DNA of 64,000 bases from assembly GCA_937930305.1 (NCBI GenBank), contig CALGLE010000001.1, forward strand, positions 62,001 through 126,000, given 5' to 3'. Under the pieces are notes generated by a model. That model was not told the DNA's origin and searched no databases. It saw only the letters and a list, made by a program, of their open reading frames with translations. Position 1 is the stretch's first letter. Every line of letters begins with the position of its first letter. The stretch comes from an uncultured Granulosicoccaceae bacterium. GTDB taxonomy: Bacteria; Pseudomonadota; Gammaproteobacteria; Granulosicoccales; Granulosicoccaceae. The translations under genes were made by a program, and so were the position numbers. Positions 2,910 through 20,123 of this stretch are shown here, piece after piece.

Positions 2910-2917
2910 GTGGGGTT

Positions 2918-3784: not shown

Positions 3785-3980
3785 TGTGCTTAGCCATAAG
3801 TTGTCCACCTGAAAGAATCAATCCAGATAAATTCAATATATCAGAATTTCTTATAGTTCTATCTTAAATATCGATTTTACGAATGCAGGGGTGGTTGTTA
3901 CTATGCGGCAGCGTTCCTAGATATAGCCAATCTTCATGCGCGGTTCTCAAGCAACAAGCGATTTAATTGAGGTCAAAACC
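3785..3980. promoter_or_regulatory. Divergent control region between LysR gene and phnW
   Basis: This is the AT-rich gap between two divergent genes. It should hold both promoters and the LysR site, but I could not single out a convincing T-N11-A operator. The base run 3969-3972 (GAGG) sits 8 bases before the ATG at 3981 and supports that phnW start over the in-frame ATG at 3936. Confidence 0.45.
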
Positions 3981-5177
3981 ATGGCCAAACCCAGCGATAC
4001 CATCCCCTTGCTTGCACCACATGAAGGCGAGCCTTATCTGCTGACTCCAGGTCCACTGACAACGGCCTACTCTGTAAAACAGGCCATGCTTCGTGATTGG
4101 GGCTCCTGGGATGATGATTTTCGACAAACGACTAAACATATCCGCGCTGAGTTACTGGCAATGGTTGATGACGTGGATCAACAATATGATTGTGTACCCA
4201 TGCAAGGCAGTGGCACATTTGCGGTGGAAGCCATGTTGGGCTCCCTACTTCCCCGCGATGCAAAAGCACTGGTGTTGGCGAATGGCGCTTATGGACTTAG
4301 AACCGCAAAAACATTGGAATACCTTGGCCGCTCGCATGTGGTGTTGGATAAAGGTGACTATTTGCCACCGCGTGGGGATGAAGTAACCAAATGGTTGGAT
4401 GCAGATCCTGACATTACGCATGTCATTGCCATTCATTGCGAAACCAGCTCCGGCATTCTTAATCCCATCGAAGAAGTATCCCGCGCAACCTATGCTGCAG
4501 GTCGGAAACTACTGATTGACAGCATGAGCGCCTTTGGTGCTATCCCATTGTCCAGCCAATCCATTCAGTATGAGGCCATCGTTTCGTCAGCGAACAAATG
4601 CATAGAAGGTGTGCCCGGTTTTGGTTTTGTTATCGCCAAAAAAAGTGCGTTACAAGCCGCCAAAGGTTGCAGCCATTCTTTAAGCCTTGACTTACACGAT
4701 CAATGGACAACGATGGAGAAAACAGGCCAATGGCGATTCACACCTCCGACGCACACCGTGACGGCTTTCGCTGAAGCACTGCGCCAACATCGTGAAGAAG
4801 GTGGCGTTGAAGCACGCGGCTCTCGTTATCGGGCTAACCGCGATGCCTTAGTGGTTGGCATGCGCAAACTGGGTTTTGAAACGCTGCTTCACGATCGCTG
4901 GTTATCTCCCATCATCGTGACATTTTTTAATCCTGCGCATCCGAATTTTGATTTCAACGTCTTCTACGAATTGATGAAAAGTAAAGGCTTCATTATCTAT
5001 CCCGGCAAGCTCACGGTGGTAGACAGTTTTCGAATTGGCTGCATTGGGCAGCTGGACGTGCACGTCATGCAACAAGTGGTAACCGCCGCAGGAGCCGCAC
5101 TGGATGAAATGGGCGTTGACACAGCGGTTGCACCTATTGCGGCGTATAATGAACGCGAAAAATTGACGGCGGAGTAA
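3981..5177 (+). CDS. phnW: 2-aminoethylphosphonate:pyruvate aminotransferase
   Basis: PhnW is a PLP fold-type I enzyme. It moves the amino group of 2-aminoethylphosphonate to pyruvate, giving phosphonoacetaldehyde and alanine. The N-terminal LLTPGPLTT motif, the [11 protein letters not shown] segment and the PLP lysine in [14 protein letters not shown] are typical. The 398-residue length from the chosen start is slightly above the ~370 usual. The start at 3981 has a GAGG ribosome site; the open frame extends 15 codons further upstream without support. It opens an operon with phnA, phnY, a pbfA-like gene and a dehydrogenase, and this context removes doubt with other class V aminotransferases. 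Confidence 0.93.
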
Positions 5178-5229
5178 ACAAAGTATTTTACTTCGTCCAA
5201 ACTAATACCAAAGGAAATTCCCACACCAA

Positions 5230-6480
5230 ATGCCTTCCCAACTAACAGTCAATGAGCGCGAATATGAGATTCCTCCGGTTTGTGCTATCGCCATCTGCCT
5301 TGATGGTTGCGAGCCAGCCTACCTAGATGCCGCGATTGAAGCCGGTTTGATGCCCACGCTGAAACGTATGCGTGAACAAGGCACAGATCGTTTAGCGCAC
5401 AGCGTCATTCCAAGCTTTACGAATCCAAACAATATGTCTATCGCCACGGGCAGGCCACCTGCGGTGCACGGCATTTGCGGTAACTTTTTATACGACCCCG
5501 ATACCGGTGAAGAGGTCATGATGAATGACCCTAAGTTTCTCCGTGCGCCCACCATTTTTAGTGCGTTTTATAACAGTGGAAAAAAAGTAGCGATCGTTAC
5601 CGCAAAAGATAAATTGCGTTCCTTACTAGCCGATGGCATGTCATTCGATGACGGTCGAGCCATTTGCTTCTCATCCGAACGTGCAGACACCACCACTATG
5701 AAAGAACACGGCGTTGACAACGCCTCAAACTGGATGGGCATGGAGGTGCCCGAGGTGTATTCGGCAGCTTTGTCGGAATTTGTTTTTGCCGCAGGCGTTA
5801 AATTGTTAAAAGAATTTAAACCCGATCTTATGTACCTGACTACCACCGATTACATTCAGCATAAGCATGCTCCCGGTGACGCAGTCGCCAATTCTTTCTA
5901 TGCAAACTTCGACAAATATCTAACTGAATTGGATGCAGCGGGAGCCGCCATTGCCATAACCGCTGACCACGGTATGAAACCAAAGCATCACGCTGATGGT
6001 TCACCCAATGTCATTTATGTTCAGGACTTATTGGATGAATGGCTGGGCAAAGAGAAAGCCCGCTTGATTTTGCCCATCACAGATCCCTATGTGGTGCACC
6101 ACGGCGCCTTGGGCTCATTCGGCACAGCGTATCTTCCAAAGGATGCCGATCAACAACAAGTGATCGACAAACTGCTAGCGATCGATGGCATTGACGTTGT
6201 GCTTAACCAAGCACAAGCGTGTTCCCAATATGATCTGCCCGCTGACCGAATTGGCGATATCGTTATTATCACGGGAGAAAACGTCACCGTGGGCACCAGC
6301 GAACATCGACACGATTTAGCCGCCTTAGATGTACCGTTGCGTTCTCATGGCGGGCTCACCGAACAGTCGGTACCCTTTATCGTAAATCGCCCTTTAAATT
6401 CTCTGGCCAACCAGCCAGAGCTTCGTAATTTTGATGTCATAAACGTTGCATGCCAAGCAGCACAGGTTGAGAAGTCATGA
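5230..6480 (+). CDS. phnA: Phosphonoacetate hydrolase
   Basis: This two-zinc enzyme of the alkaline-phosphatase / nucleotide pyrophosphatase superfamily cleaves the C-P bond of phosphonoacetate to acetate and phosphate. The expected site residues are all present: Asp25 (CLDGCEP), the nucleophile Thr64 (SFTNPNN), Asp207 and His211 (TDYIQH), Asp246-His247 (TADHGMKPK) and His373 (RSHGGLTE). At 416 residues it has the family length. An AAGGAAA run lies about 14 bases before the ATG. Its stop overlaps the phnY start (ATGA). This is the PhnA of the PhnWAY route, not the unrelated YjdM/PhnA zinc-ribbon protein. Confidence 0.93.
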
Positions 6481-7931
6481 GTAAACCATCCGGTGAAGTT
6501 CGCAAAGAAGCTATGCGCATTGGTGGCGAAAAAGTTCACACCAATGACGTCATTGAAGTTCGATACCCTTACACGAATGAGGTAATCGGAACGGTACCGG
6601 CTGGCAATGCAGAGCATGCCAAACGTGCCTTTGAAATTGCGGCCAACTTTCGCCCAAGGTTATCCCGGTACGAACGTCAGCAGATTTTATTTAAAACCGC
6701 TGAACTCATTCGCGAACGCCGTGAAGAGATCGCCCATTGGCTCACGTTGGAATTAGGCATTTGCCATCAGCATGCCTTATACGAAACCGGTCGCTCATAT
6801 GACGTGTTCATGCTGACTGGACAACTCGCCATACTTGATGACGGTCAGATATTTTCCTGCGACTTAACCCCGCATGGCAAAGATCGAAAAATTTACACCA
6901 AGCGTGAGCCGGTAAGAGCGATATCTGCAATAACACCGTTTAATCACCCGCTTAACATGGTGGCGCATAAAATCGCACCATCAATCGCCACCAACAATTG
7001 CATGGTGTGTAAACCCACTGAGCTCACTCCATTAACCGCCATCACACTTGCCGATATATTGTATGAAGCGGGCCTTCCCCCTGAGATGTTTCAGATCGTC
7101 ACGGGCATGCCTGCTGACATTGGCGACGAGATGGTGTTGAACGAGCACATCGAAATCATCACGTTTACCGGTGGCGTGAGCGTGGGTAAAATGATTGCCA
7201 GCAAAGGCGCTTACAAGCGTCAAGCACTGGAACTCGGTGGAAATGATCCACTCATCGTATTGAATGATTTAAACGATGCTGACCTTGACAAGGCCGCCAC
7301 CCTAGCCGTGGCCGGTGCCACTGGAAATTCAGGACAACGATGTACCGCTGTGAAACGCATTCTTGCCCAAGAATCCATCGCGGACAAACTGGTTGCTAAA
7401 GTCTTAGATAAAGCCAAAGCCATACAGTTTGGCGACCCCATGAATCCTGACACTCAGCTGGGTTGTGTCATTCATGCAGAAGCCGCTGAGCTATTCGAAA
7501 ATCGTGTTCATATGGCGGAGAAAGCCGGCGCTAAAATTCTCTATCACCCAGGTCGCAAGGGCGCCTTGTTACCCCCTATCACCGTAGATCACGTTCCGCA
7601 CGACAGTGAGTTGGTTCTTGAAGAAACGTTTGGGCCCATCGTACCCATCGTCCGTGTTCCCGATGACGATGCAACGGTTATGAATATCTCGAATTCAACC
7701 GCGTTTGGACTCTCTGCCGGTGTATGCACCAATAACTTGAATCGAGCTATCGATTACATTGAGGGATTGGATGTAGGAACCGTTAACGTTTGGGAACAGC
7801 CAGGCTACCGAATCGAGATGTCGCCGTTTGGTGGAATCAAGGATTCAGGAAATGGGGTCAAAGAAGGAGCGTTAGAGGCCATGAAGTATTTTACTAACGT
7901 GAAAACCTACTCTCTGCCGTGGCCTCGATAA
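6477..7931 (+). CDS. phnY: Phosphonoacetaldehyde dehydrogenase
   Basis: This 484-residue NAD-dependent aldehyde dehydrogenase is predicted to oxidise phosphonoacetaldehyde (from PhnW) to phosphonoacetate (for PhnA). Visible motifs are the cofactor-site [11 protein letters not shown] region, the general-base Glu in ALELGGNDP and the catalytic Cys in [11 protein letters not shown], followed by EETFGPIVP. It overlaps phnA by 4 bp and is followed after 6 bp by the pbfA-like gene, so it is translated within the same operon. The family alone would allow other aldehydes; the substrate call rests on its place between phnA and the lyase. Confidence 0.9.
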
Positions 7932-7937
7932 GCCCCA

Positions 7938-9332
7938 ATGACTTCAATCCCACCAGCGGGTGAAAGCGAAGTAAATACGTCTTCCCGGCGTCAACGCTGG
8001 GCGGACGATGTTCATGATAGTTCGACTAAAAAAATGTTGGCAGAGGACGCGCATTACTTTCTGCGCCAATCGGTCTCCACGCCGTGCTTATCGACCATCG
8101 CTCGCGCAGAAGGGGCTTACATTGAAGATACACAGGGCCGTCGGTATTTAGATTTTCACGGTAACAACGTTCACCACATCGGTTATGGGCATCCGAAACT
8201 GAAAGCGGCCATTGCACGACAAATGGATGAGCTGCCGTTTGCCCCTCGCCGATTTGCCTGTGAACCGGCAACCGCCTTGGCAAAAAAACTCACTGAACTG
8301 GCACCCGGGGATTTATCCAAGGTGTTGTTCACTACAGGTGGCTCATCGGCGGTTGAAGTGGCGATGAAAATCGCACGGGCGGCCACTGGCAGACACAAAA
8401 CCGTCTCCTTTTGGGATGCGTTCCACGGCGCAGGCTTTGGAGCAGCATCCGTTAGTGGGGAACAAATGTTCCGTTCTCATGCCGTTGGCCCTTTGCTATC
8501 GGGTACCCAACACGTCGCACCGTTTGATTGTTACCGATGCCCTTACGGCTATCCGAGTGTGAATGGCAAACCCCAATTGGAACTGTGCAAACTCACTTGC
8601 GCCAATATGGTTAAGTATGTGTTGGAGAAGGAAGGTGATGTTGCAGCGGTGATCGCCGAACCGGCCAGAGCGGTACCCTATATTCCTCCACCGGGTTTTT
8701 GGGCTGAGGTAAGACGTGCCTGCAATGAACACGGCGCCCTACTCATCTTTGATGAGATTCCAACTGGGTTAGGTAAAACCGGTAAATTATTCGCTTGTGA
8801 TCATGACGCAGTAGTGCCCGATATCTTAGTGTTGGGAAAAGCGCTAGGCGGCGGCATTTTGCCTTTAGCTGCGGTACTCGCAACGCCAGAACTGGATGTG
8901 GGTGAGAACTACGCTTTCGGACACTACACCCATGAAAAAAATCCGGTAAGCGCGACTGCCGGTCTTACCACCATACAAATCATCGAAGATGAAAACCTTG
9001 TCGACAACGCCGCCACTCTCGGGACCATCGCGTTAAGTCGACTGAATGAAATGCAAGCGTCGTACTCTGTTATAGGTGATGTACGCGGTAGAGGACTGTT
9101 GTTTGGCGTTGAACTGATCATGGATAAAGACACCAAAACACCCGCCGATGATTTAGCTGAAGCGGTTTTTTACCGCTGTCTAAACAAGGGGCTATCATTT
9201 AAAATATCCATGGGCAACACCTTAACGTTTACACCGCCTTTGATACTCACTGAAGCACAATTGGACTTTGCTTTGAACGTTATCGAGGAGTCTATCGTTG
9301 AAGAGTGCAAATTAGCGGGTATTGCTACATGA
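7938..9332 (+). CDS. pbfA: PLP class-III protein, probable (R)-1-hydroxy-2-aminoethylphosphonate ammonia-lyase
   Basis: This 464-residue class-III aminotransferase-fold protein has the PLP lysine in VLGKALGGGILP, the Asp of LLIFDEIPTGLG and an N-terminal FHGNNVHHIGYGHP segment. Class-III proteins found inside phnW/phnX or phnW/phnY/phnA clusters have been characterised as PbfA. That enzyme does not transaminate but eliminates ammonia from (R)-1-hydroxy-2-aminoethylphosphonate to give phosphonoacetaldehyde, widening the substrate range of the pathway. The gene sits 6 bp after phnY and overlaps the next gene by 4 bp. An ordinary omega-aminotransferase is the alternative; context strongly favours PbfA. 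Confidence 0.82.
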   Translation: MTSIPPAGESEVNTSSRRQRWADDVHDSSTKKMLAEDAHYFLRQSVSTPCLSTIARAEGAYIEDTQGRRYLDFHGNNVHHIGYGHPKLKAAIARQMDELPFAPRRFACEPATALAKKLTELAPGDLSKVLFTTGGSSAVEVAMKIARAATGRHKTVSFWDAFHGAGFGAASVSGEQMFRSHAVGPLLSGTQHVAPFDCYRCPYGYPSVNGKPQLELCKLTCANMVKYVLEKEGDVAAVIAEPARAVPYIPPPGFWAEVRRACNEHGALLIFDEIPTGLGKTGKLFACDHDAVVPDILVLGKALGGGILPLAAVLATPELDVGENYAFGHYTHEKNPVSATAGLTTIQIIEDENLVDNAATLGTIALSRLNEMQASYSVIGDVRGRGLLFGVELIMDKDTKTPADDLAEAVFYRCLNKGLSFKISMGNTLTFTPPLILTEAQLDFALNVIEESIVEECKLAGIAT

Positions 9333-10378
9333 GTGAATCGGTTACGAACCTCAGCGGTGTTCGCGTGGTACGTACCGATTCTGAAATTCAGTGTGACGTG
9401 ATTGACGAATGGTTTCGCAGTCGAGGTGCCGAATTAGTCCTACTCCCGGCTGATGTTAACGAAGACGATCTTTGCCAAGCAGTCGCACACGCCAGCCTTT
9501 TGTTGATGTGCTACACAACAATAAACTCAAATACCATCCAGGTCGCTAAACAACTGCGCGGAATTGTGAAATACGGCGTGGGCATTGATGCGATCGACAT
9601 TGAGGCTGCAACCCAATGCGGCATTCCAGTGGTTAACGTTCCCGAGTACGCTGAGCAAACGGTTGCTGAAGGGGCGTTTTGTTTAATGCTGGCGCTACTA
9701 AAAAAGTTATTACCCGTTCATCAAGCCATGCAGCAATCAGGCTGGATTGAACCGAGCAACCAATGGCTCGGACACGATGTGTTCGGAAAATGTGTAGCGA
9801 TTATTGGCGCGGGTCGCATTGGTCGTGCGTTTGCACGTATGGCTGGCAGCGGCTTCAGTGCCAGAGTCATTGCCTACGACCCGTTCGTCAGTGCCGCAGA
9901 ATTAGCACAACTGAATATCGAAAAAATGGATGATCTACATGCGCTGCTTGCGCAAGCGGATGTGATTTCTGTGCATACAGTTTTAAACGATGACACACGC
10001 GCGATGATTGGTCGTAAGGAATTCGCTGCCATGATGAAGCAACCCATATTCATCAACGTATCCAGAGGGGCGCTGGTGGATGAGATGGCTTTGCTGGACG
10101 CACTTAACAACCATCAAATCCGTGGTGCTGGGTTGGATGTATACAGCTCCGAGCCCTTGAATCGCACCTCGCATAAGTTGGCCAGCTTGTTCGATCGCGA
10201 CAACGTCATCGTCACTCCTCATTTGACATTCTTCACTCATGAAGCCATGCAACGCTTGACAACAGACACACTGGCCCGCTGTCAGGAGCTGCTCCTGGGT
10301 AAAAGCGTCACCCTACGCTCGACTGATCCTAGACTGGTTGCACAGCAAGGCGTTCTAAATGTCAAATTTAACACCTAG
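9329..10378 (+). CDS. D-isomer-specific 2-hydroxyacid dehydrogenase in the phosphonate operon
   Basis: The 349-residue NAD(P)-dependent dehydrogenase has the Rossmann motif GAGRIGRAFARM, the substrate-binding Arg in NVSRGALVDE, a following Glu in SSEPLN and the catalytic His in VTPHLTFFTHEA. I chose the ATG at 9329, which overlaps the stop of the preceding gene (ATGA); an in-frame ATG at 9305 lies inside that gene. The overlap implies co-translation with the pbfA-like lyase, so it should act in the same pathway, yet no step of PhnWAY needs it. A hydroxyphosphonate or phosphonopyruvate/phospholactate-type substrate is possible (inference). It shares only family features with the dehydrogenase at 62.2 kb. 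Confidence 0.85.
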   Translation: MSESVTNLSGVRVVRTDSEIQCDVIDEWFRSRGAELVLLPADVNEDDLCQAVAHASLLLMCYTTINSNTIQVAKQLRGIVKYGVGIDAIDIEAATQCGIPVVNVPEYAEQTVAEGAFCLMLALLKKLLPVHQAMQQSGWIEPSNQWLGHDVFGKCVAIIGAGRIGRAFARMAGSGFSARVIAYDPFVSAAELAQLNIEKMDDLHALLAQADVISVHTVLNDDTRAMIGRKEFAAMMKQPIFINVSRGALVDEMALLDALNNHQIRGAGLDVYSSEPLNRTSHKLASLFDRDNVIVTPHLTFFTHEAMQRLTTDTLARCQELLLGKSVTLRSTDPRLVAQQGVLNVKFNT

Positions 10379-10743
10379 CTGCTGGAAGCTAAAGCTGCCA
10401 AAAAACACTTATATATTTAATTAATTCAATAGGTTATGAAACATTTATAAATAAAAATAGCTATTGCTTAGCGCTTATGCAATCGCACTGAGATGTCATG
10501 AATGTCTTGTAGCGTTTTCAATGTCCATATACAGTGTGAAGGTAAGCACTCAGAGTTAATAAAGTGCATGCAAATAAAATTGTCATAGAACATTGTAAGT
10601 GTCAGTACGGATGGTGTGCGAGTACTTCTTAGGCACTTGTGAAGGCCTAAGTTTTATAAATGACAGCGGTGATTTCATCGTGGCGTAATAAACGCCGCGT
10701 ATTAATCACGACTGAATAAAAAATCACATGAGGAAGAACAACG
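10379..10743 (+). promoter_or_regulatory. Intergenic region upstream of the peptide-type ABC operon
   Basis: These 365 bases without a gene separate the phn operon from the transporter operon. They are AT-rich near the start (about 10400-10460) and carry one weak stem-loop (10628-10655). The last 60 bases include AGGAAG just before the ATG at 10744. The region is long enough for a separate promoter, but no clear -35/-10 pair could be chosen. Confidence 0.4.
10628..10655 (+). terminator. Weak stem-loop with T-run (terminator or leader element)
   Basis: CTTAGGC at 10628-10634 pairs with GCCTAAG at 10645-10651, with a 10-base loop and TTTT after it. The stem is only 7 bp, so it may be a weak end for the phn transcript or a leader structure of the next operon. 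Confidence 0.35.
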
Positions 10744-12780
10744 ATGAAAAGAATTTTACTTCTAACCGGCTTAAGTATGGTGGCAACGTCCGCTATAGCC
10801 AACTGTCCGCCTGTTACGGTGGCAGATGCACAAGGGGTTGGCGCCGGAGCCTATCCTCAGCAATACGAATTATCTGAATTTCAATCACTCGCAAGCTGCG
10901 AATTAGCCTTCTCAGAGAACCCAGACATCGCCAGCCTCAATGGCAAGATCCGAGGTAATCCCGATCTACCGCCATTAGCTGAACGGCTACCCGAGGAACC
11001 TTTAGTCGTTGCGCCTTATGATGAAATCGGCCAGTACGGTGGCAGTTTGCGTGCCTTGTCGAACGCTACGGAAGCGGGCACCTCAGACTTTTTGTCAACC
11101 CGTCATGTCAATCTGGTTCGCTATTCCGATGATTTAGAAACCATCGTGCCTAACGTGGCCAAATCTTGGGAATGGAACGATGACTTCACCGAGCTGACTT
11201 TCTCTTTGCGTAAAGGCCACAAATGGTCTGACGGTGCACCGTTCACCGCTGAAGACGTTAAGTTCTGGTACGACCATCTTGCGTTGGACTCCAACGTCAT
11301 TGAAAAACCCAAAGATTATGTGCTCATCGGTGGCGAACGCATGACAGTGGACGTGGTTGATCCGCAAACTGTGCGCTTTAATCTGCCTGCACCAAAACCG
11401 GGCTTACTCGCTCACTTTGCTACATCGTTCGCACAAGGGTTTCAGCCCAAGCATTTCTTAGGGCAATTTCATCCTGATGTGAATCCTGAAGCGGATGCCA
11501 TGGCACAAGCGGCTGGATTTGAAAATGGTTATGCACTAATCAAAGCGTACTGGGGTAATTCTGATTGGACTGATACACCCTCCCCGCTTTTGAATTCTCC
11601 TGACAAAGTGGCTGATCTGCCAGCTGATGTTTACCCCACGTTGGAAAGTCACATCACGGTGGGTGAAACCACAGAAGGTCGACGCTATGTCGCGAATCCT
11701 TACTTTTTCATGGTGGATACGCAAGGTAACCAACTGCCCTACATCAGTGAACAGGATGAGCAATACATCAATGATGCTCAGGTTCGTTTGCTGAAACTGG
11801 TCAATGGTGAGGTCGAATACAAAACGCAGTCGCTGCAATTGTCTGATGTACCACTACTGCTAGAGAATCAGGAAAAAGGCGATTACACGATTGATATTCG
11901 TCCTAAAATCGCCATGCATGCGTTCTCATTCAACGTAACCTCTGAAGATCCTGAAAAACGCAAAGTATTCGGTGATTTACGGTTTCGAAAAGCGATGTCC
12001 ATCGCGATCAATCGTGATGACTTAAATGAAGTCGCCTATTTCGGTCAAGGACAACCCCAGCAATACATTGGTTTTTCTCCAGCCCCAGGATTTGTTGACG
12101 AAAAATGGAAAAGTTACGCCATTGAGTACGATCTTGATCAGGCGAAATCCTTACTGGATGAAGTGGGTTTAAAAGATACCAATGGCGATGGCTTTCGTGA
12201 ATTGCCGAACGGTGACAACCTTGTGATCAACATGCAGTTTGCAACACAAGGGATCGCAGGACAGGTTGTGGAATTGGTTGGCCAGTACTGGTCTGAAGCC
12301 GGCATACAAACCACTGTGAAAGAAATCACGCCCGATGAGTATCGTTCAGCTCAGTCATCAAATGCCCTGGATGTTGGCATGTGGGAGAAAGGTCAACCCT
12401 TAGGTATCGTGCTAGGCAATAACGAGCTTTGGGTTGCACCATTTGAGAATTACTTCGCACACCGCGTCGGTATGTTGTGGGGCGAGTACTTCGAATCCGA
12501 TGGTGCAAAAGGTGTTGAGCCACCCGACTATGTTAAGCAACTCAAAGATGACATTGATGCGTTTCAGTCAACGCCAGTCGGCACGCCTGAATCCGATGAA
12601 CTCGGTGCTCGTCTCGTTCAGAACATGGTTGAAAACCTGCTGTTCATCGGCACGGCCATGACACCGGATCCTATCTATCACCGTAATGCATTGAAGAACG
12701 TTGTCGAATTCAAAACGGCTTCTTACGAATATTATCGAACGTTCCCGTATCGCGCGCAGCAGTGGTCCTTAAGCGAGTAA
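10744..12780 (+). CDS. ABC transporter substrate-binding protein, family 5 (oligopeptide/opine type)
   Basis: This 678-residue periplasmic binding protein of the SBP_bac_5 family has an N-terminal signal peptide (MKRILLLTGLSMVATSAIA). The core contains the family run LRKGHKWSDGAPFTAEDVKF and a KAMSIAINRDDL segment. It is longer than DppA/OppA (~540), with inserted sequence around residues 200-330. An AGGAAG ribosome site precedes the ATG. Two permeases and two ATPases follow in order, so the importer is complete. The ligand is unknown; downstream genes suggest a phosphonate ester or phosphonopeptide (inference). Confidence 0.9.
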   Translation: MKRILLLTGLSMVATSAIANCPPVTVADAQGVGAGAYPQQYELSEFQSLASCELAFSENPDIASLNGKIRGNPDLPPLAERLPEEPLVVAPYDEIGQYGGSLRALSNATEAGTSDFLSTRHVNLVRYSDDLETIVPNVAKSWEWNDDFTELTFSLRKGHKWSDGAPFTAEDVKFWYDHLALDSNVIEKPKDYVLIGGERMTVDVVDPQTVRFNLPAPKPGLLAHFATSFAQGFQPKHFLGQFHPDVNPEADAMAQAAGFENGYALIKAYWGNSDWTDTPSPLLNSPDKVADLPADVYPTLESHITVGETTEGRRYVANPYFFMVDTQGNQLPYISEQDEQYINDAQVRLLKLVNGEVEYKTQSLQLSDVPLLLENQEKGDYTIDIRPKIAMHAFSFNVTSEDPEKRKVFGDLRFRKAMSIAINRDDLNEVAYFGQGQPQQYIGFSPAPGFVDEKWKSYAIEYDLDQAKSLLDEVGLKDTNGDGFRELPNGDNLVINMQFATQGIAGQVVELVGQYWSEAGIQTTVKEITPDEYRSAQSSNALDVGMWEKGQPLGIVLGNNELWVAPFENYFAHRVGMLWGEYFESDGAKGVEPPDYVKQLKDDIDAFQSTPVGTPESDELGARLVQNMVENLLFIGTAMTPDPIYHRNALKNVVEFKTASYEYYRTFPYRAQQWSLSE

Positions 12781-12818
12781 CGCTAAATAGCGTCATACAA
12801 GTCGCTTAACAAGCAAGT

Positions 12819-12860
12819 AGAGCAAGCGCGGGGTTAACGCCCTGCACTTGCTCTGCCTTT
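12819..12860 (+). terminator. Intercistronic stem-loop between binding-protein and permease genes
   Basis: AGAGCAAG at 12819-12826 pairs with CTTGCTCT at 12847-12854, and an inner GC-rich stem (12828-12833 with 12840-12845) closes a TTAACG loop. That makes about 14 bp with one mismatch. The T-run after it is poor. Such elements between a binding-protein gene and its permeases commonly stabilise or partly terminate the mRNA, giving excess binding protein. Confidence 0.6.
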
Positions 12861-12883
12861 CGCTCTGAACCGATAGACAAAGC

Positions 12884-13894
12884 ATGCTCAGATTTCTACA
12901 GTTCACGTTAACGAGAGCGGTTTTATCGCTCTTTACCCTGTTAACGGTTTCATTAATCGTGTTTAGCTTAATGGAACTGGTGCCTGGCAATTGCGCCGAG
13001 CGCTATCTAGCCTTCAAAAATACGCAAGGCTCGCAAATATCAATCGATGATATCCAAGCTGAAGAGAGACGGCTCGGATTAGATAAACCATTCATTCAAC
13101 GTTGGGGCGGTTGGATATCCAACGTATTTCTTCGCGGTGAATTTGGCGATAGCTGCATCCTACGCCTCGACATCAACCAATTACTCAGTGACAAATTCTG
13201 GATAAGTTTAGGCATTAGTCTGGCGGCCCTATTGGTCGCTTACGCCATTGCGGTACCAGTCGGCATCTACTCGGCCACCACGCGCAGCGCATTGGCGAAC
13301 AATTCACTGCGATTCGTCAGCTACTTGGGATTAGCACTACCCAATTTCTTATTAGCTCTTATCATCATGCTCATCTCAACGGTGCTGTTTGGTGACTCAC
13401 TGACTGGTTTGTTTTCATCCGAGTACCGTGATGCCCCCTGGTCAATGGATAAGTTTCTTGATTTTCTATCCCGGGCCTGGCTACCTATTTTTATTCTCGG
13501 CTGGTCAGCAACCGCTTTCGCGCTACAAACAGTGCGCGCTTTGATGCTTGATGAAATCGGCAAGTTGTATGTCACAGCTGCCTCAGCCCGAGGCGTTTCA
13601 GGGTCTAAGTTGCTTTGGCGCTACCCGGCTCGTCACGCCATGGGACCTGTGATTAATTCACTCGGTTTTGACTTGAATAGAATATTCAATGAATTGCCGG
13701 TCGTGGCATTGATACTGACATTAACCGAAGCCGGCGCACTATTAATCGAATCGCTGGCAAGATCCAATGATCAGCAACTGGCTGGGGCCATCATCTTTTT
13801 GCTTACCGCCAGCATCGTTTTCGTCAACTTCATTACCGACATCATGCTGGCTCTTATGGATCCGCGCATTCGTAAAGGGATGATTGGCTCATGA
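12884..13894 (+). CDS. ABC transporter permease, DppB/OppB type
   Basis: The 336-residue inner-membrane permease starts with a hydrophobic segment (LTRAVLSLFTLLTVSLIVFS), typical of DppB/OppB. A periplasmic loop follows, then a conserved permease domain whose cytoplasmic loop reads TAASARGVSGSKLLWRYPARHA, the EAA-type coupling loop. About six membrane spans are visible. Its stop overlaps the next permease start by 4 bp (ATGA). It forms the import channel with the 13891-15084 gene. Confidence 0.9.
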   Translation: MLRFLQFTLTRAVLSLFTLLTVSLIVFSLMELVPGNCAERYLAFKNTQGSQISIDDIQAEERRLGLDKPFIQRWGGWISNVFLRGEFGDSCILRLDINQLLSDKFWISLGISLAALLVAYAIAVPVGIYSATTRSALANNSLRFVSYLGLALPNFLLALIIMLISTVLFGDSLTGLFSSEYRDAPWSMDKFLDFLSRAWLPIFILGWSATAFALQTVRALMLDEIGKLYVTAASARGVSGSKLLWRYPARHAMGPVINSLGFDLNRIFNELPVVALILTLTEAGALLIESLARSNDQQLAGAIIFLLTASIVFVNFITDIMLALMDPRIRKGMIGS

Positions 13895-15084
13895 ACCTAT
13901 TTCGGCGCAAAGCCTCATCAGAACAATCCCAAAAGCTGAAAGAAGCCTACTTCACAGCATCTCAAGGGCAACTTATTCGCTCCCGGTTCAAACGCAACAA
14001 AGCCTCGATGGTTGCCGCGTTTGTACTCACCGCGATGATATTGATGGGATTCTTTGCAGAGTTTCTATCTCCTTATTCACCTGACATCGCCGGTCGTGAC
14101 AAAGCCTATGAAAACGGCCCACCACAAATTCCAAAGTTCTGGGATGAAAACGGATTCTCTGCTCGACCGTTTCTATACACATTGGAACGCGAACGCTCGA
14201 TTAAAACCAATTTTCGTTGGGTTATAACCGAGAACAGAGAGAAACGCCGCTACGTAAAAATGTTTGTGCGAGATTGGGAATACAGCTACATCGACATAGA
14301 CTGGAATCTGCCGGGCGAGATGTTTGATATCAAATGGAAGGCTCTGACAACGGACTTGCATCTGTTTGGCATGGATGAAGGAGGTCTGCATTTATTTGGC
14401 ACCGATGCCTCGGGTAAGGATATCTATTCGCGAACCTTGCACGCAATCAATACCTCTTTAGCCGTGGGTACACTGGGGGTACTCATCTCATTTGTGCTCG
14501 CCCTAGTCATCGGAGGCGTGGCGGGATACTTTGGCGGATGGATCGATTCGATTCTTCAAATGATCACCGATGCCATACGTACGGTGCCACCCATCCCATT
14601 GTTTATGGCACTGGCAGCGTTTATGCCCGATTCATGGAGCTCAGAAACCCGGTTTTTCTTCATCGCCAGTATTCTTGGGCTCATAGGTTGGCCAACGTTG
14701 GCGCGACGCATTCGCACCCACTTACTCACCGAACGAAGTCAAGAATATGTGTTGGCAGCTCAACTGTGTGGGGCCTCATCAGGGCACGTCATTCGTCGAC
14801 ACCTACTACCGAGCTTCACAAGCTACATCATTGTTGACTTGATGATTACGTTCCCCTATGTAGTTCGTTCTGAAACAGCTTTGAGCTTTATCGGGCTGGG
14901 GCTAACCGACCCGGTTAACTCATTAGGCTCCCTAATGCAGAACGTATCGAAGGCCGATGTGCTTTTGAATTATCAATGGTATTTCATACCGGTGTTATTT
15001 TTTATCGCGTTTGTACTGGCGTTTGTGTTTGTTGGCGACGGCTTACGTGATGCCGCTGACCCTTATTCGAATAGCAAACGATGA
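13891..15084 (+). CDS. ABC transporter permease, DppC/OppC type, with long periplasmic insert
   Basis: The protein has 397 residues, about 100 more than a usual DppC. After the first membrane helix (residues ~35-58) there is a long hydrophilic stretch to about residue 185 before the permease domain. The coupling loop carries LAAQLCGASSGHVIRRHLLPS. An elongated form is also seen in YejE-like permeases of peptide/antibiotic importers. It overlaps both neighbours by 4 bp, so the four membrane and ATPase genes are translationally coupled. Confidence 0.88.
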   Translation: MNLFRRKASSEQSQKLKEAYFTASQGQLIRSRFKRNKASMVAAFVLTAMILMGFFAEFLSPYSPDIAGRDKAYENGPPQIPKFWDENGFSARPFLYTLERERSIKTNFRWVITENREKRRYVKMFVRDWEYSYIDIDWNLPGEMFDIKWKALTTDLHLFGMDEGGLHLFGTDASGKDIYSRTLHAINTSLAVGTLGVLISFVLALVIGGVAGYFGGWIDSILQMITDAIRTVPPIPLFMALAAFMPDSWSSETRFFFIASILGLIGWPTLARRIRTHLLTERSQEYVLAAQLCGASSGHVIRRHLLPSFTSYIIVDLMITFPYVVRSETALSFIGLGLTDPVNSLGSLMQNVSKADVLLNYQWYFIPVLFFIAFVLAFVFVGDGLRDAADPYSNSKR

Positions 15085-16076
15085 GCTTATTAAAAGTTGA
15101 GAACCTAACGCTTCAGTTCAAAACTGATGAAGGCTTGATCACAGCCGTTGACAACGTCTCGTTTGAAGTGAACGCCGGTGAAGTGTTGGGCTTGGTGGGC
15201 GAATCGGGATCAGGTAAATCGGTGACGGCAAAGTCATTAATGAAGCTAAATCCTGAAAACGCGGTGTATAGCCCAGAGAGTTCCATCGAACTTAATTTGG
15301 ACGACCAAAAGATTGATGTGTTGTCTCTTACTTCAGGGCAAGACTTAAAACCGGTTCGAGGTGGTTCCGTTTCCATGATTTTCCAAGAACCGATGGCAAG
15401 CTTTGCACCAGCGATCAGCATTGGTGAGCAGATGGTTGAGCAACTGATGTTGCATAAGAAAATAAGCAAATCAGAAGCTTCCGGAATATCCATCGAAATG
15501 CTTGATCGTGTTGGCATATCCGATGCGTCCAAGCGATTCAAACAATATGCCTTTGAATTATCAGGCGGTATGCGTCAGCGTGCGATGATTGCTATGGCGT
15601 TGTCGACTCGACCCAGCTTACTGATCGCTGATGAGCCAACGACCGCATTGGATGTCACCATACAAGCGCAAGTCATCGATTTGATGAAAGATCTCATTGC
15701 TGAATTTGGTATGGGCATTATCTTCATCACGCACGACTTGGGTGTCATTGCTCAAACGGCGGATCGAGTCGCTGTGATGTATCTTGGCAAAATAGTCGAA
15801 CAGGGTTCGGTGCGGGATGTGATAAAAAACCCAGCACATCCCTATACACGGGGCTTATTAAACGCCTTACCTAAACTTGATGATCTTGACACACCATTGA
15901 CACCTATTCCGGGCGACATACCCAGCCCACTTGAACGCCCAGCCGGTTGTGTTTTCCATACACGGTGCCCCGTCAGCGAAGAGCGCTGCAAACAGTCTGT
16001 ACCTGAATATGAACAGCGCAGTGGGAGTCATAAGGCAGCCTGTTTTGTTACCGCGACTGAAGGGAATTTGCCATGA
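15081..16076 (+). CDS. ABC transporter ATPase, DppD/OppD type
   Basis: This 331-residue ATPase has Walker A GESGSGKS, the signature LSGGMRQR, Walker B LLIADEPT and the H-loop in FITHDLG. The C-terminal extension carries the oligopeptide-transporter Cys motif (GCVFHTRCP...RC), which in this family can hold an iron-sulfur cluster. It is coupled by a 4-bp overlap to the second ATPase, as expected for a heterodimer. Confidence 0.93.
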   Translation: MSLLKVENLTLQFKTDEGLITAVDNVSFEVNAGEVLGLVGESGSGKSVTAKSLMKLNPENAVYSPESSIELNLDDQKIDVLSLTSGQDLKPVRGGSVSMIFQEPMASFAPAISIGEQMVEQLMLHKKISKSEASGISIEMLDRVGISDASKRFKQYAFELSGGMRQRAMIAMALSTRPSLLIADEPTTALDVTIQAQVIDLMKDLIAEFGMGIIFITHDLGVIAQTADRVAVMYLGKIVEQGSVRDVIKNPAHPYTRGLLNALPKLDDLDTPLTPIPGDIPSPLERPAGCVFHTRCPVSEERCKQSVPEYEQRSGSHKAACFVTATEGNLP

Positions 16077-17074
16077 GTGATCAAGGCTTAATTGAAGCCG
16101 ATAAGCTTTCTGTGCACTTTCCTATTGGCGGCGGCCTACTGCGGCGCCCAAAAATGCTGCGCGCTGTGGATGAAGTTTCTTTATCCATTCCTAAAGGCTC
16201 TTTCTTTGGTTTGGTGGGAGAAAGTGGCTCGGGTAAAACCACATTAGGTCGAGCGATGCTGCGGGCAACACCGATAACGAGTGGAGGGGTGCGCTACTCA
16301 GATGGCGAGGTTGAGTACGATCTGGTCAACTTACCCAAATCTGAACTGATTGAATATCGCAAACGTGCTCAATTGATATTTCAAGACCCATACGCGGCCC
16401 TTAGCCCTCGTATGACAGTGCGCGATATCATCGCAGAACCACTGGAGGTGATGAAGATCACCAACTCGCGAGATGAAACCGATGCACGGGTGCGAGAAAT
16501 TGCTGAGAAATGCCGCCTGAATCTGGAACATTTGCGTCGTTTTCCGCACGCCTTTTCCGGCGGACAAAGGCAACGCATATCCATCGCCCGAGCCTTAGTT
16601 TCTAGTCCTCGTTTTGTGGTTGCGGATGAAAGTGTTGCAGCCCTGGATGTGTCCATTCAAGCCGATATTCTGAACCTACTGAAAGCGTTACAGCAAGAGC
16701 TAGAACTCACCTACTTATTTATCAGTCACGATTTATCTGTGGTTGCCCATATTTGCGACCATGTGGCTGTGATGTATCTGGGCAGACTGGTTGAAACAGC
16801 GCCCACACGCGAATTGTTTACAGCGCCAAGACATCCGTACACCAAAGCGTTGCTCTCCGCTATCCCTTCGCTTGACCCTGATCAACGCGGCAACGCGCAA
16901 AAGCTGGAAGGTGAAATTCCTTCACCCACTAACCCACCTTCGGGTTGTAAGTTTCATACGCGCTGCCCTCACGCCATCGACATCTGCAAACAAACCGAGC
17001 CTGCACTGGATCACCTGGGCAGTGAGCACGATGTGGCTTGTCATCGATGGCAAGAACTGGCTCATATTCCATAA
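16073..17074 (+). CDS. ABC transporter ATPase, DppF/OppF type
   Basis: The second ATPase of the importer, 333 residues, has Walker A GESGSGKT, signature FSGGQRQR, Walker B FVVADESVAALD and the C-terminal CKFHTRCP motif of oligopeptide importers. The Walker B run reads DESVAALD rather than the commoner DEPVSALD. It ends 55 bp before the hydrolase gene with no terminator between them, so the hydrolase is probably co-transcribed. Confidence 0.93.
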   Translation: MSDQGLIEADKLSVHFPIGGGLLRRPKMLRAVDEVSLSIPKGSFFGLVGESGSGKTTLGRAMLRATPITSGGVRYSDGEVEYDLVNLPKSELIEYRKRAQLIFQDPYAALSPRMTVRDIIAEPLEVMKITNSRDETDARVREIAEKCRLNLEHLRRFPHAFSGGQRQRISIARALVSSPRFVVADESVAALDVSIQADILNLLKALQQELELTYLFISHDLSVVAHICDHVAVMYLGRLVETAPTRELFTAPRHPYTKALLSAIPSLDPDQRGNAQKLEGEIPSPTNPPSGCKFHTRCPHAIDICKQTEPALDHLGSEHDVACHRWQELAHIP

Positions 17075-17129
17075 ATAGTTGTGCACCGTTCAAACGCTTT
17101 AATGCCAATCACTATGGCGTGCTCGCATC

Positions 17130-18692
17130 ATGACTAACAAAGTACTTCTGATTGTTCTTGACCAATTTCGTGCTGATTGTCTGAACGGTATGTTAGCTGA
17201 TGCAGCGCCTCTGCCTAATATGCAATCTCTAATGCAAGAAGGCACCACCTTCACACAGCACTACACAGTAACAACGCCTTGTGGGCCATCTCGCGCCAGC
17301 CTACTCACCGGTTTGTATGCGATGAATCATCGCTCAGTGCGTAATGGAACACCACTGGCACGCCAGCACTTAACCATCGGCCACCATATGCGCAAAGCGG
17401 GTATTGAGCCCATGCTGTTTGGCTATACCGATGTGAGTGCTGACCCACATGGATTGCACAGTAACGACCCAGATTTGAAAAACTACGAGGGACTGGCACC
17501 TGGGTTTGCGGAAATTGTTCGGATGCGCTTTGATGCCCCAGGCTCATGGGCAGGGTATTTAAAAGCCAATGGGTATCCCGTGCCAGATGACTATCAGGAT
17601 GTCTATAAGCCCAAGTTAGATAAGACGACAGCCACGGCAACTTATCCGGATGGCTCACCCATTCGATCCCCCGCTATGTACGCTGCAGAAGATAGTGATA
17701 CAGCTTACTTAACCAATCGAACCCTTCAAGAACTCTCGGCGCTGGAATCACAGAACTGGTTTGCACTATTGACCTACATTCGCCCTCACCCGCCGTTGGT
17801 TGCGCCCTCACCCTTCAATACGATGTATTCACCAGACTCTCTGCCAGCTCCAAAAACAGCGGGTTCGCTGGATGAGTTACGAGCATCGCATTCGTTTTTT
17901 GATACGTTTTTTGGTGCCCCTTCCCATCACGGTTTATTCAGAGGCTTCAATGGAAGACTCGACCAACTTAACGAGGAACAAATTGCCGAACTTCGTGCGG
18001 TTTATTTGGGACTCGCATTTGAAGTTGACCACCACATCGGACGCGTTATCGACTACCTAAAATCAAGCAATCAATACGATGATACTTTGATAATCGTTAC
18101 AGCCGATCACGGTGAGATGTTGGGAGATCACCGAATGTGGGGCAAAGGCACGCCATTGAACGGTTCCTTACATATTCCATTAATCATTCGAGACCCTCAG
18201 CAACCGAACAGTTTTGGTCAACAGATCTCTGCATTCACCGAATCGATAGACATCGCGCCGACACTAGTCGATTGGGTGTCTACAGACGCTGCCAACAAGT
18301 CATTCGACAGTTTCAATGGCTCGTCATTATTGCCCTTGATGACAGGTGCTACACCAGAAAACTGGCGCAGCTATGTATTTGCTGAAGCCGAACTGGGTGA
18401 CCCACATCAGGCAACGCACTATCAAACGACGTTAAATTTGTCAGCCGCTCAAGCGAACTTTGCGCTGCTAAAAACTCATGAACACAAGTATGTTCACTTT
18501 AACGGTGCTGTTCCGCCGATGTTGTTTAACTTAACCGATGATCCGAACGAGTTTAAAAATTTAGCATCAGATTCAGAATCGGCCCAACAGCTAAGTCGCT
18601 TATCATCCATCATGCTAGATCATCGTATGACGCATGCGAATCACTCATTAAGTAATTTCAAGCTGACCTGTGAGGGTTTGTTTACTCGATAG
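17130..18692 (+). CDS. Phosphonate monoester hydrolase / sulfatase-family enzyme (formylglycine type)
   Basis: This 520-residue member of the sulfatase branch of the alkaline-phosphatase superfamily carries the maturation signature C-x-P-x-R at Cys51 (TTPCGPSRASLLTGLY), so Cys51 should become formylglycine. Metal-site Asp11 (LDQFRAD) and the later TADHGEMLGDH segment are intact. Order and spacing of segments (MNHR, YIRPHPP, FTESIDIAPT) match the phosphonate monoester hydrolases of Rhizobium and Burkholderia more than typical arylsulfatases. No signal peptide is seen, so it should act in the cytoplasm on imported substrate. With phn genes next door, a phosphonate ester is the best guess; these enzymes are promiscuous. 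Confidence 0.82.
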   Translation: MTNKVLLIVLDQFRADCLNGMLADAAPLPNMQSLMQEGTTFTQHYTVTTPCGPSRASLLTGLYAMNHRSVRNGTPLARQHLTIGHHMRKAGIEPMLFGYTDVSADPHGLHSNDPDLKNYEGLAPGFAEIVRMRFDAPGSWAGYLKANGYPVPDDYQDVYKPKLDKTTATATYPDGSPIRSPAMYAAEDSDTAYLTNRTLQELSALESQNWFALLTYIRPHPPLVAPSPFNTMYSPDSLPAPKTAGSLDELRASHSFFDTFFGAPSHHGLFRGFNGRLDQLNEEQIAELRAVYLGLAFEVDHHIGRVIDYLKSSNQYDDTLIIVTADHGEMLGDHRMWGKGTPLNGSLHIPLIIRDPQQPNSFGQQISAFTESIDIAPTLVDWVSTDAANKSFDSFNGSSLLPLMTGATPENWRSYVFAEAELGDPHQATHYQTTLNLSAAQANFALLKTHEHKYVHFNGAVPPMLFNLTDDPNEFKNLASDSESAQQLSRLSSIMLDHRMTHANHSLSNFKLTCEGLFTR

Positions 18693-18752
18693 GTCGCTCG
18701 ATTCTTAGCTGTATACTGAGTACATTGGCAAAATAACAATGAGATTAAACCG

Positions 18753-20123
18753 ATGACCATAACCTGTATTTCCCCTATCGATGGCTCGGTGTACGCTGAA
18801 CGCCAAGCGCTTTCTGGCGATAAGGCGATGGCTGCTGCACAGGATGCAAGAACGGCTCAATCCCATTGGGCCACACGTCCGCTTGATGAACGCATCGCTT
18901 TGGTACAGGCCGGCGTTGCAAAAGTGGGTGAGATGAATGATGAAATCGTTCCAGAATTAGCCTGGCAAATGGGTCGACCCATTCGCTACGGCGGTGAATT
19001 TGGTGGGTTTAATGAGCGTGCCGGTTACATGAGTAGCATCGCTCATGAAGCGCTGGCGCCGATTGAAATCGAAGACAGCGATGCGTTTTGGCGAATGATA
19101 AAACGGGCACCTTTGGGCGTTGTGTTAGTTGTTGCACCGTGGAACTACCCCTATATGACAGCCATTAATTCAGTAGCCCCGGCTTTGATTGCAGGAAACT
19201 CGGTGGTACTTAAACACGCCTCGCAAACACTGCTTGTGGGTGAGCGTATGGCTGCTGCCTTTCACGCAGCCGGTGTGCCTAAGGATGTGTTCCAAAACGT
19301 GTTTCTAGATCACGCAACAACCTCTGAACTCATCGCCGCTAACGCGTTTGATTTTGTCAATTTCACAGGCTCTGTGGGTGGCGGTATTGCCATGGAACGT
19401 GCCGCCGCAGGTACATTCACCGGTGTCGGCACCGAATTAGGTGGTAAAGACCCAGGCTATGTTCGAGAAGATGCAAACCTTGAAGCAGCGGTTGATACCT
19501 TGATTGATGGCGCCATGTTTAATTCTGGTCAGTGCTGTTGCGGGATAGAACGGATCTACGTGCATGAATCGCTTTTCAAACCCTTTGTGGAAAAAGCCAC
19601 AGCCATTGTTCAAGACTACAAGCTAGGCAACCCACTGGAGCAGGAAACCACACTCGGGCCGATGGCGCATGTGCGTTTTGCCAATGAAGTTCGGGCTCAG
19701 ATAAAAGAGGCCATTGACACAGGAGCCACCGCGCATGTGCCAACCTTCGCCGAAGACGATGGCGGGGCCTATTTGTCCCCACAGATATTGACTGATGTCA
19801 CCCACAGCATGCGCGTAATGCGCGATGAAAGTTTCGGGCCGGTGGTTGGCATTATGCCAGTGAAAGATGATGCTGAGGCGATTGCATTGATGAACGATAG
19901 CGAATTCGGCTTAACCGCGTCTGTCTGGACTGAAGATGCCGCTCACGCCGAAGCCCTTGCTGATCAGATTCAAACCGGCACCGTGTTTATGAACCGTGCG
20001 GACTACCTCGACCCGGCCCTGTGTTGGACAGGGTATAAAAATACAGGTCGTGGTGGGGCGTTATCGCCCATCGGGTACCACAACCTGACTCGAGTTAAAT
20101 CGTATCATTTTAAGAAAGCCTAG
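18753..20123 (+). CDS. NAD(P)-dependent aldehyde dehydrogenase
   Basis: The 456-residue aldehyde dehydrogenase has the cofactor-site VVAPWNYPYM, the Glu in TELGGKDPGY and the catalytic Cys in NSGQCCCGIERIYV, with the usual ESFGPVVG later. It resembles the succinate-semialdehyde/medium-aldehyde branch and is not a close copy of the phnY product at 6.5 kb. It lies 60 bp after the ester hydrolase, so it may oxidise the alcohol/aldehyde part released from the imported compound (inference). The substrate is not readable from sequence. Confidence 0.85.
   Translation: MTITCISPIDGSVYAERQALSGDKAMAAAQDARTAQSHWATRPLDERIALVQAGVAKVGEMNDEIVPELAWQMGRPIRYGGEFGGFNERAGYMSSIAHEALAPIEIEDSDAFWRMIKRAPLGVVLVVAPWNYPYMTAINSVAPALIAGNSVVLKHASQTLLVGERMAAAFHAAGVPKDVFQNVFLDHATTSELIAANAFDFVNFTGSVGGGIAMERAAAGTFTGVGTELGGKDPGYVREDANLEAAVDTLIDGAMFNSGQCCCGIERIYVHESLFKPFVEKATAIVQDYKLGNPLEQETTLGPMAHVRFANEVRAQIKEAIDTGATAHVPTFAEDDGGAYLSPQILTDVTHSMRVMRDESFGPVVGIMPVKDDAEAIALMNDSEFGLTASVWTEDAAHAEALADQIQTGTVFMNRADYLDPALCWTGYKNTGRGGALSPIGYHNLTRVKSYHFKKA

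Follow-up and report, generated by a model that had tools for sequence, protein, structure and literature searches.

The mineralisation of aminoethylphosphonate (AEP) by PhnW, PhnA and PhnY (PhnWAY) is described together with the importers AepXVW, AepP and AepSTU, which were studied with free AEP (PMC8316502). PbfA and PbfF provide side routes for R- and S-hydroxy-aminoethylphosphonate (HAEP) (PMC8154272, PMC12366243). PbfF, a NAD-dependent HAEP racemase of the Pfam family PF02826, was shown in 2025 in AEP-degradation clusters of Rhodobacterales and Hyphomicrobiales (PMC12366243). AEP is found conjugated to glycans, lipids and proteins in many marine organisms (PMC9381506), and PEH was suggested to open phosphonate esters of marine polysaccharides before carbon-phosphorus (C-P) cleavage in Sulfitobacter with C-P lyase (PMC5649143). 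In the agrocinopine system, AccA and an ATP-binding cassette (ABC) importer bring a phosphodiester into the cell intact, and the AccF phosphodiesterase and the AccG phosphatase then act on it (PMC4526662). The locus described here belongs to a Granulosicoccaceae assembly (GCA_937930305.1, contig CALGLE010000001.1, positions 62,001-126,000 of the forward strand; this 64,000-nt stretch is the window). It carries twelve genes on the + strand between 3936 and 20123: phnW-phnA-phnY-pbfA-pbfF-like, the genes of a SBP5-type binding protein and of DppB, DppC, DppD and DppF, that of a homologue of formylglycine-type phosphonate monoester hydrolases (PMH) and an aldehyde dehydrogenase (ALDH) gene. A divergent LysR gene and a MetE-C-like gene are also part of the picture (Table 1).

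The locus resembles the described PhnWAY systems (PMC8316502) in having PhnW, PhnA and PhnY above curated cut-offs and a LysR regulator of the phosphonate type, and differs by the addition of the SBP5 Dpp-type importer and the PMH homologue in a genome without an AepW match. It has the genes of the published PbfA/PbfF clusters, likewise set within phnWAY; no mention of a SBP5 importer or of a PMH was found in the accessible parts of PMC8154272 and PMC12366243. Sulfitobacter PEH is associated with C-P lyase, whereas the C-P pathways here are hydrolytic and have a Dpp importer linked to them, and the accessible part of PMC5649143 yielded no description of an importer linked to PEH. By analogy of function, the locus would most resemble agrocinopine uptake, with import of an intact phosphodiester and cleavage in the cell, although the agrocinopine ligand is a sugar phosphodiester and no C-P chemistry is involved (PMC4526662). 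Among the open-access papers searched, none was found to describe PMH and PhnWAY or PhnWX together with an importer of the Dpp type. AccA (4zec), which we take to belong to the SBP5 family, is weakly similar to the SBP5 protein of the window (E 4.6e-7).

Gene content and neighbourhoods indicate that the locus probably imports an aminophosphonate O-ester intact, opens the ester inside the cell and feeds the hydrolytic AEP/HAEP pathway. The SBP5 protein would capture an ester of AEP or HAEP with a small organic group, DppBCDF would pump it into the cell and the PMH homologue, in the cytoplasm, would cleave the P-O-C ester and free the aminophosphonate. The freed AEP would pass through PhnW, PhnY and PhnA to yield acetate and phosphate, while HAEP would join the pathway via PbfF and PbfA.

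Table 1. Features of the phosphonate locus, with positions in the window and the family evidence for each.
Feature	Position	Strand	Evidence
MetE C-terminal-domain-like protein (Meth_synt_2), possible accessory gene	1854..2909	+	Pfam PF01717
LysR regulator, phosphonate-associated type, divergent from phnW	2918..3808	-	TIGR03339 307.8 bits, curated cut-off 341.1
phnW, AEP:pyruvate transaminase	3936..5177	+	TIGR02326 484.7 bits, cut-off 400.8
phnA, phosphonoacetate hydrolase	5230..6480	+	TIGR02335 533.8 bits, cut-off 407.55
phnY, phosphonoacetaldehyde dehydrogenase	6477..7931	+	TIGR03250 746.3 bits, cut-off 635.65
pbfA, (R)-HAEP ammonia-lyase	7938..9332	+	NF049939 658.2 bits, cut-off 525
Probable pbfF, NAD-dependent HAEP racemase	9305..10378	+	PF02826, inside phnWAY-pbfA run
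SBP5-type binding protein, 678 aa (P0008)	10744..12780	+	PF00496 193.4 bits
DppB-type permease	12884..13894	+	Opp2B 172.1 bits, cut-off 350; position between SBP5 and DppC genes
DppC-type permease	13891..15084	+	PF00528, PF12911 OppC_N
DppD-type ATPase	15081..16076	+	PF00005, PF08352 oligo_HPY
DppF-type ATPase	16073..17074	+	PF00005, PF08352 oligo_HPY
Formylglycine-type PMH/phosphodiesterase homologue	17130..18692	+	closest structure 4upk, 485.9 bits
ALDH, lineage-specific neighbour	18753..20123	+	PF00171

Genes were assigned with NCBIfam models and their curated cut-offs and with Pfam, and solved structures were compared by sequence. All twelve genes lie, in one direction, where an earlier sequence-only reading of this DNA had placed them; the start that it gave for the run, 3981, is the second in-frame ATG of phnW, whose frame opens at 3936. 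PhnW, PhnA and PhnY each score above their equivalog cut-off and their adjacent genes define a PhnWAY pathway, while PbfA passes the cut-off of NF049939. The fifth product of the run had been named a dehydrogenase. Its homology to D-2-hydroxyacid dehydrogenases stands, but its function is most likely that of the PbfF racemase. The gene lies in the phnWAY-pbfA cluster with a 28 bp overlap with pbfA, and its product is 54% identical to that of a pbfA-adjacent gene of Shinella zoogloeoides. Shinella zoogloeoides is a species of Table 1 of PMC12366243; in the 13 kb seen of the strain compared, phnW, phnA and phnY were not found.

The importer has the composition of the Opp-Dpp type: a SBP_bac_5 binding protein, two permeases and two oligo_HPY ATPases. 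Permease B is recognised by its position and by Opp2B and other Opp/Nik/DppB NCBIfam permease models, all of which it matches below their cut-offs. The system is not AepXVW, its binding protein being SBP_bac_5 and not AepX (SBP_bac_6) and the genome having no AepW match. The N-terminus of the SBP5 protein is, by eye, signal-peptide-like. A structure prediction from a two-sequence alignment had a mean pLDDT (predicted local distance difference test) of 31.6 and was not used.

The solved relatives of the PMH homologue are, in order, 4upk ("phosphonate monoester hydrolase"), 2vqr, 4uph and 2w8s. It shares with the PMH/PehA enzymes (4upk, 2w8s, 2vqr; pRL9) the sequence family and the CxPxR formylglycine, GYT, PHPP, DHG and GK motifs. 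The formylglycine motif CGPSR is at residue 51, and the GYTD, PHPP, DHGE and GK positions recur, with small variations, in all PMH members of a 31-sequence alignment that includes three outgroups; the motif residues are presumably catalytic. One match to the formylglycine-generating-enzyme family is present elsewhere in the genome. The protein is a putative hydrolase of phosphonate monoesters, as the PMH family, that unlike the PMH/PehA enzymes compared is genomically linked to C-P cleavage and falls below the PehA equivalog cut-off. No export signal is seen by eye in its N-terminus, and it is therefore expected to act in the cytoplasm, where it is probably located.

The search for homologues of the SBP5 protein identified 10 among the 48 genomes of the family, including that of the window (65-87% identity, followed by a drop to <=34%), three more in other families among the 369 genomes of the class (50-69% identity) and 2 in 72,556 plasmid records. 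Together with the protein of Ruegeria halocynthiae, which entered the survey through its PMH, these make a set of 16 genes. Note that the order is represented in the genome set by this single family, so that an order-level search repeats the family search, that the G009 gene is split over two contigs and was counted once, and that G003 and G007, whose matching dpp genes are at contig ends with SBP5 not seen, were left out. Genes for C-P cleavage are found within 9 kb of seven of the 16: those of the window, of G021, G034 and G036 from the same genus, of G340, of G400 and of SC52. A PMH is in the cluster at six of these seven loci (presumably so in G034, where a contig break intervenes), and another phosphodiesterase in the seventh. 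In contrast, no C-P gene or PMH was found within 9 kb of any of 27 paralogous SBP5 loci (27-34% identical) from the genomes of the same family; the Fisher p for C-P linkage, 7/16 against 0/27, is 3.6e-4, uncorrected for kinship. The 15 homologues tested on the SBP5 tree form one well-supported group, apart from four paralogues. Within the 48 genomes SBP5 co-occurs with PhnA in 9 of 10 cases (p 5.7e-5). The pairing recurs in other lineages and is absent around paralogous SBP5 genes, and thus exceeds chance.

The linked clusters differ in composition and gene order. G021 carries the whole run phnWAY-pbfA-pbfF-SBP5-BCDF-PMH, and in G034 a contig break interrupts it; in G036 the run is visible from mid-phnA, at a contig end, onward, and pbfA-pbfF are missing between phnY and SBP5. 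In G340, from a second family, pbfF-pbfA-phnY-phnA-phnW is divergent from PMH-SBP5-dppB-dppC. Plasmid CP049030.1 of the Rhodobacteraceae strain SC52, from sea cucumber gut, codes in one direction for SBP5-B-C-D-F-phnW-phnX-PMH, with PhnW and PhnX passing curated cut-offs. The G400 cluster begins with a TIGR03364 flavin oxidase (399.1, cut-off 285.1), followed by a PhnX-like hydrolase that narrowly passes TIGR03351 (220.3, cut-off 218.9), SBP5-B-C-DF and a PF01663 phosphodiesterase of 273 residues. The N-methyl-AEP oxidase PbfD1 is annotated as a TIGR03364 member (PMC10590968). Three C-P pathways are linked in this way: PhnWAY, PhnW-PhnX, and flavin oxidase with PhnX-like hydrolase. That importer and ester hydrolase repeatedly accompany C-P enzymes, which themselves differ between lineages, is observed directly and is the main argument for uptake of an ester. 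A lack of co-occurrence in related genomes would have refuted the sequence-only reading, which withstands this check: the pairing is seen within the genus and also, alongside different C-P enzymes, in other families.

The same evidence bears on whether two unrelated operons are merely neighbours. The spacings are consistent with one or two transcription units, both in the phn/pbf part (phnW-phnA 52 bp, phnA-phnY -4, phnY-pbfA 6, pbfA-pbfF -28, pbfF-SBP5 365) and in the importer part (SBP5-B 103 bp, B-C -4, C-D -4, D-F -4, F-PMH 55, PMH-ALDH 60). No promoter-like site was found in a search of the 365-bp gap, which has a single weak terminator-like site on the - strand. The lack of a clearly conserved block in this gap, compared among four relatives, and the position of nine of the 16 SBP5 importers away from C-P genes would suit an accidental adjacency across it. 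This explanation, to which we give hardly any credence, is rejected on account of the recurrence of the pairing in other gene orders and with other C-P pathways (G340, G400, SC52) and of the paralogue control.

PMH homologues (E <1e-80, 36-100% identity) are present in 13 genomes of the family. The gene is within ~11 kb of phnA or phnW in eight of them (window, G021, G036, G003, G005, G006, G009, G015), linked across a contig break in G034, and apart from both in four (G002, G007, G031, G037), among which G007 has it adjoining orthologous dppBCDF. Another PMH subfamily (34-41% identical) is found directly behind phnW or phnY in G003, G005, G006, G009 and G015. PMH co-occurs with PhnA in 12/13 cases among the 48 genomes (p 3e-7, uncorrected for kinship), or in 12/16 (p 3e-5) when three weaker matches are kept. 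The phn link takes 5 changes on the PMH tree, and well-supported branches force at least 4 of these.

On named plasmids, the surroundings of 12 of 37 PMH records were surveyed in gene tables that are incomplete. C-P genes occur in the PMH clusters of SC52 and of Pararhizobium qamdonense (oxidase-PhnX-ABC importer-PMH). A SBP5-type importer is directly behind PMH in Pseudoroseomonas cervicalis, Rhizobium johnstonii 3841 (pRL9) and Roseibium aggregatum, ~6 kb from it in SC52 and 8.6 kb in Ruegeria conchae; SBP_bac_5 was confirmed by Pfam for SC52, Pseudoroseomonas, pRL9 and Roseibium, and the R. conchae SBP5 is 61% identical to that of the window. An ABC importer of another kind adjoins PMH in Aliiroseovarius, while neither SBP5 importer nor C-P genes were found next to PMH in Ruegeria pomeroyi, Ruegeria B32, Ruegeria THAF33 and Rhizobium NLR16a. 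In pRL9 (L175 8992-16204), which is, judged from the name of the structure, the home of the solved 2vqr enzyme, PMH is immediately upstream of the SBP5/Opp-type importer, and this neighbour is a clue to the natural substrate of the enzyme. A regulator annotated PhnF (GntR/UTRA by Pfam) is divergent from PMH and the SBP5 importer on the Roseibium aggregatum plasmid (L178 8060-15833).

Several observations weigh against the import of aminophosphonate esters. The PMH homologue scores 472.5 bits with the PehA equivalog model NF045661, whose cut-off is 900, and the gene is consequently called PMH-like and not filed as PehA. Nine of the 16 SBP5 homologues have no C-P gene within 9 kb (G002, G005, G006, G009, G013, G015, G310, R. 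halocynthiae and R. conchae, the G009 and G013 loci sitting on short contigs), and three changes, all of them forced, are required to place the phn link on the SBP5 tree, possibly one old link followed by two losses. G031 and G042 have the phnWAY-pbfA-pbfF run yet no close SBP5 homologue. Neither dppD nor dppF was found in 26 kb of G340, so that the importer is there without linked ATPase genes; its ATPases may be encoded elsewhere in the genome or be shared (L145 9907-14342). PhnW, PhnA, PhnX and PhnY are not annotated in 48 kb of the R. conchae plasmid, none of the four is near the importer and PMH of R. halocynthiae, and no SBP5 importer or C-P gene is annotated within 9 kb of the R. pomeroyi PMH. 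Finally, AepW was sought at E 1e-60, with scores for 25 of the 30 initial candidates, and gave no match in the genome of the window, in G034 (84% complete) or in G036 (68% complete), so that the Dpp importer could carry free AEP.

The AepW result is what an alternative role of the importer builds on, namely transport of free AEP or HAEP in place of AepXVW, with a PMH that cleaves some different phosphodiester and is joined to the locus through phosphorus metabolism. The three genomes without an AepW match all have the operon, and in them the Dpp importer might replace the AEP importer (AepP and AepSTU were not searched). AepW, so called because in G021 its gene follows that of a TIGR03261 binding protein, is present in 7/48 genomes, all of them with PhnA. 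G021 itself has AepX-ATPase-AepW immediately behind PMH, the binding protein scoring above the TIGR03261 cut-off; AepXVW-type and Dpp importers are thus in one run and the latter is no mere substitute there. The importer and PMH of two Ruegeria without PhnW/A/X/Y are awkward for an AEP importer, and the steady presence of PMH or another phosphodiesterase at the C-P-linked SBP5 loci also speaks against it. We regard transport of the free compounds as unlikely, if worth serious consideration.

The Ruegeria clusters point in a different direction. The R. conchae plasmid stretch L168 3818-20251 carries PMH, DeoR, inositol-monophosphatase family, N-formylglutamate amidohydrolase family, glutamine-synthetase-like and ALDH genes, continued by Fe-type alcohol dehydrogenase (Fe-ADH), EamA, DeoR and SBP5-BCDF; genes for a DUF1045 protein and for a binding protein of the PhnD/SsuA family follow 8.8-10.3 kb past the importer. 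The R. halocynthiae cluster comprises SBP5-B-C-D (truncated where the locus ends), DeoR, EamA, a sodium/phosphate (Na/Pi) cotransporter, inositol-monophosphatase family and PMH genes; MAG3 has PMH with the same enzyme set, SBP5 not being seen in 21.5 kb. The R. conchae stretch looks like a phosphodiester catabolic cluster, and its genes may degrade an amino alcohol along a gamma-glutamyl route analogous to that for putrescine. These enzyme sets, and the DeoR, glpD and sugar-type ABC importer genes alongside PMH on the Aureimonas plasmid, would fit a general scavenger of phosphodiesters (e.g., glycerophosphoethanolamine) for which phosphonate esters are a side substrate. Against such a scavenger, phnWAY opens the operon of the window and those of its genus relatives, and beside these operons (neighbours scanned in part) neither a phosphatase of this kind nor glpD nor, apart from the ALDH of the window, an amino-alcohol gene was found. 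In SC52 and G400 the importer is coupled to C-P enzymes directly. It is an improbable explanation of the locus.

For the ester reading, the Ruegeria importer and PMH clusters without PhnW/A/X/Y hint at a phospho/phosphono-ethanolamine diester as ligand, AEP being the phosphonate analogue of phosphoethanolamine. A single binding-protein lineage for phospho- and phosphono-ethanolamine esters would explain the settings with and without C-P genes, and glycero-AEP is the simplest and most likely candidate for it. Its identification as the specific ligand, derived from degraded phosphonolipid, is possible but tentative. A small glycan fragment bearing an aminophosphonate is the next candidate: the nearest solved structures of the SBP5 protein by sequence are 7ver (SPH1118) and 5ipw, with DppA and OppA far behind, and SPH1118 presumably binds oligosaccharides, which brings in glycan-bound phosphonate as well.

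The sequence-only reading had proposed uptake of a larger phosphonate that is opened in the cell. The part of it that concerns esters is retained as the best reading, given the recurrence of importer, PMH and C-P genes, while the phosphonopeptides that it also named find no support. SBP5/Dpp systems commonly carry peptides, and 5ipw was deposited as an oligopeptide-binding protein. However, no peptidase family of NCBIfam or Pfam is matched by the genes of 1854-20123, which speaks against phosphonopeptides, the SBP5 protein is much closer to SPH1118 and 5ipw than to DppA/OppA, and the recurrent partner of the importer is an ester hydrolase. Import of phosphonopeptides is therefore very improbable.

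The LysR protein has TIGR03339 as its best match, below the curated cut-off, and its relatives adjoin phn genes at loci L070, L082-L085, L087 and L094; it would regulate the operon. Matches to the MetE-C-like gene are present in 15 of the 48 family genomes. It adjoins PMH in G001 (where the contig end truncates PMH), G002, G003, G005 and G009 and the SBP5 importer in G006 and G015. In G031, G037 and G042 it is found behind a different ABC importer with a SBP_bac_8 binding protein (scanned in G031 only). The ALDH is rejected as a conserved partner within the family: its matches in 21/48 genomes show no association with PhnA (p 0.82), and no ALDH of this type was found behind PMH in G021 and G034, the G036 contig ending at that point. 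It adjoins a glutamine-synthetase-like gene in 5/7 other loci examined, the remaining two being on short contigs. An ALDH accompanies PMH in the R. conchae and MAG3 clusters, with which it is possibly a shared element. A Na/Pi cotransporter with a PhoU domain is encoded in the family phn clusters L082, L083, L084, L085, L088 and L091 (not every copy was domain-scanned), and likewise in the PMH clusters of R. halocynthiae and MAG3; export of surplus phosphate is its possible role. A calcineurin-like metallophosphoesterase is encoded on the - strand a few genes downstream of the operon (23429-24757).

The PMH family has so far been studied chiefly as a model of catalytic promiscuity. It is plausible, though we hold this with some reserve, that SBP5/DppBCDF and PMH form a dedicated import-and-release system for natural aminophosphonate esters, such as head groups of phosphonolipids or fragments of phosphonoglycans, and that hydrolysis of these esters and, where the cluster has no C-P genes, of their phosphodiester analogues is the physiological job of the family. 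If so, the uptake of a whole conjugate would close a gap in the return of bound phosphonate to the phosphorus cycle, and the well-studied PMH enzymes would gain a testable natural role.

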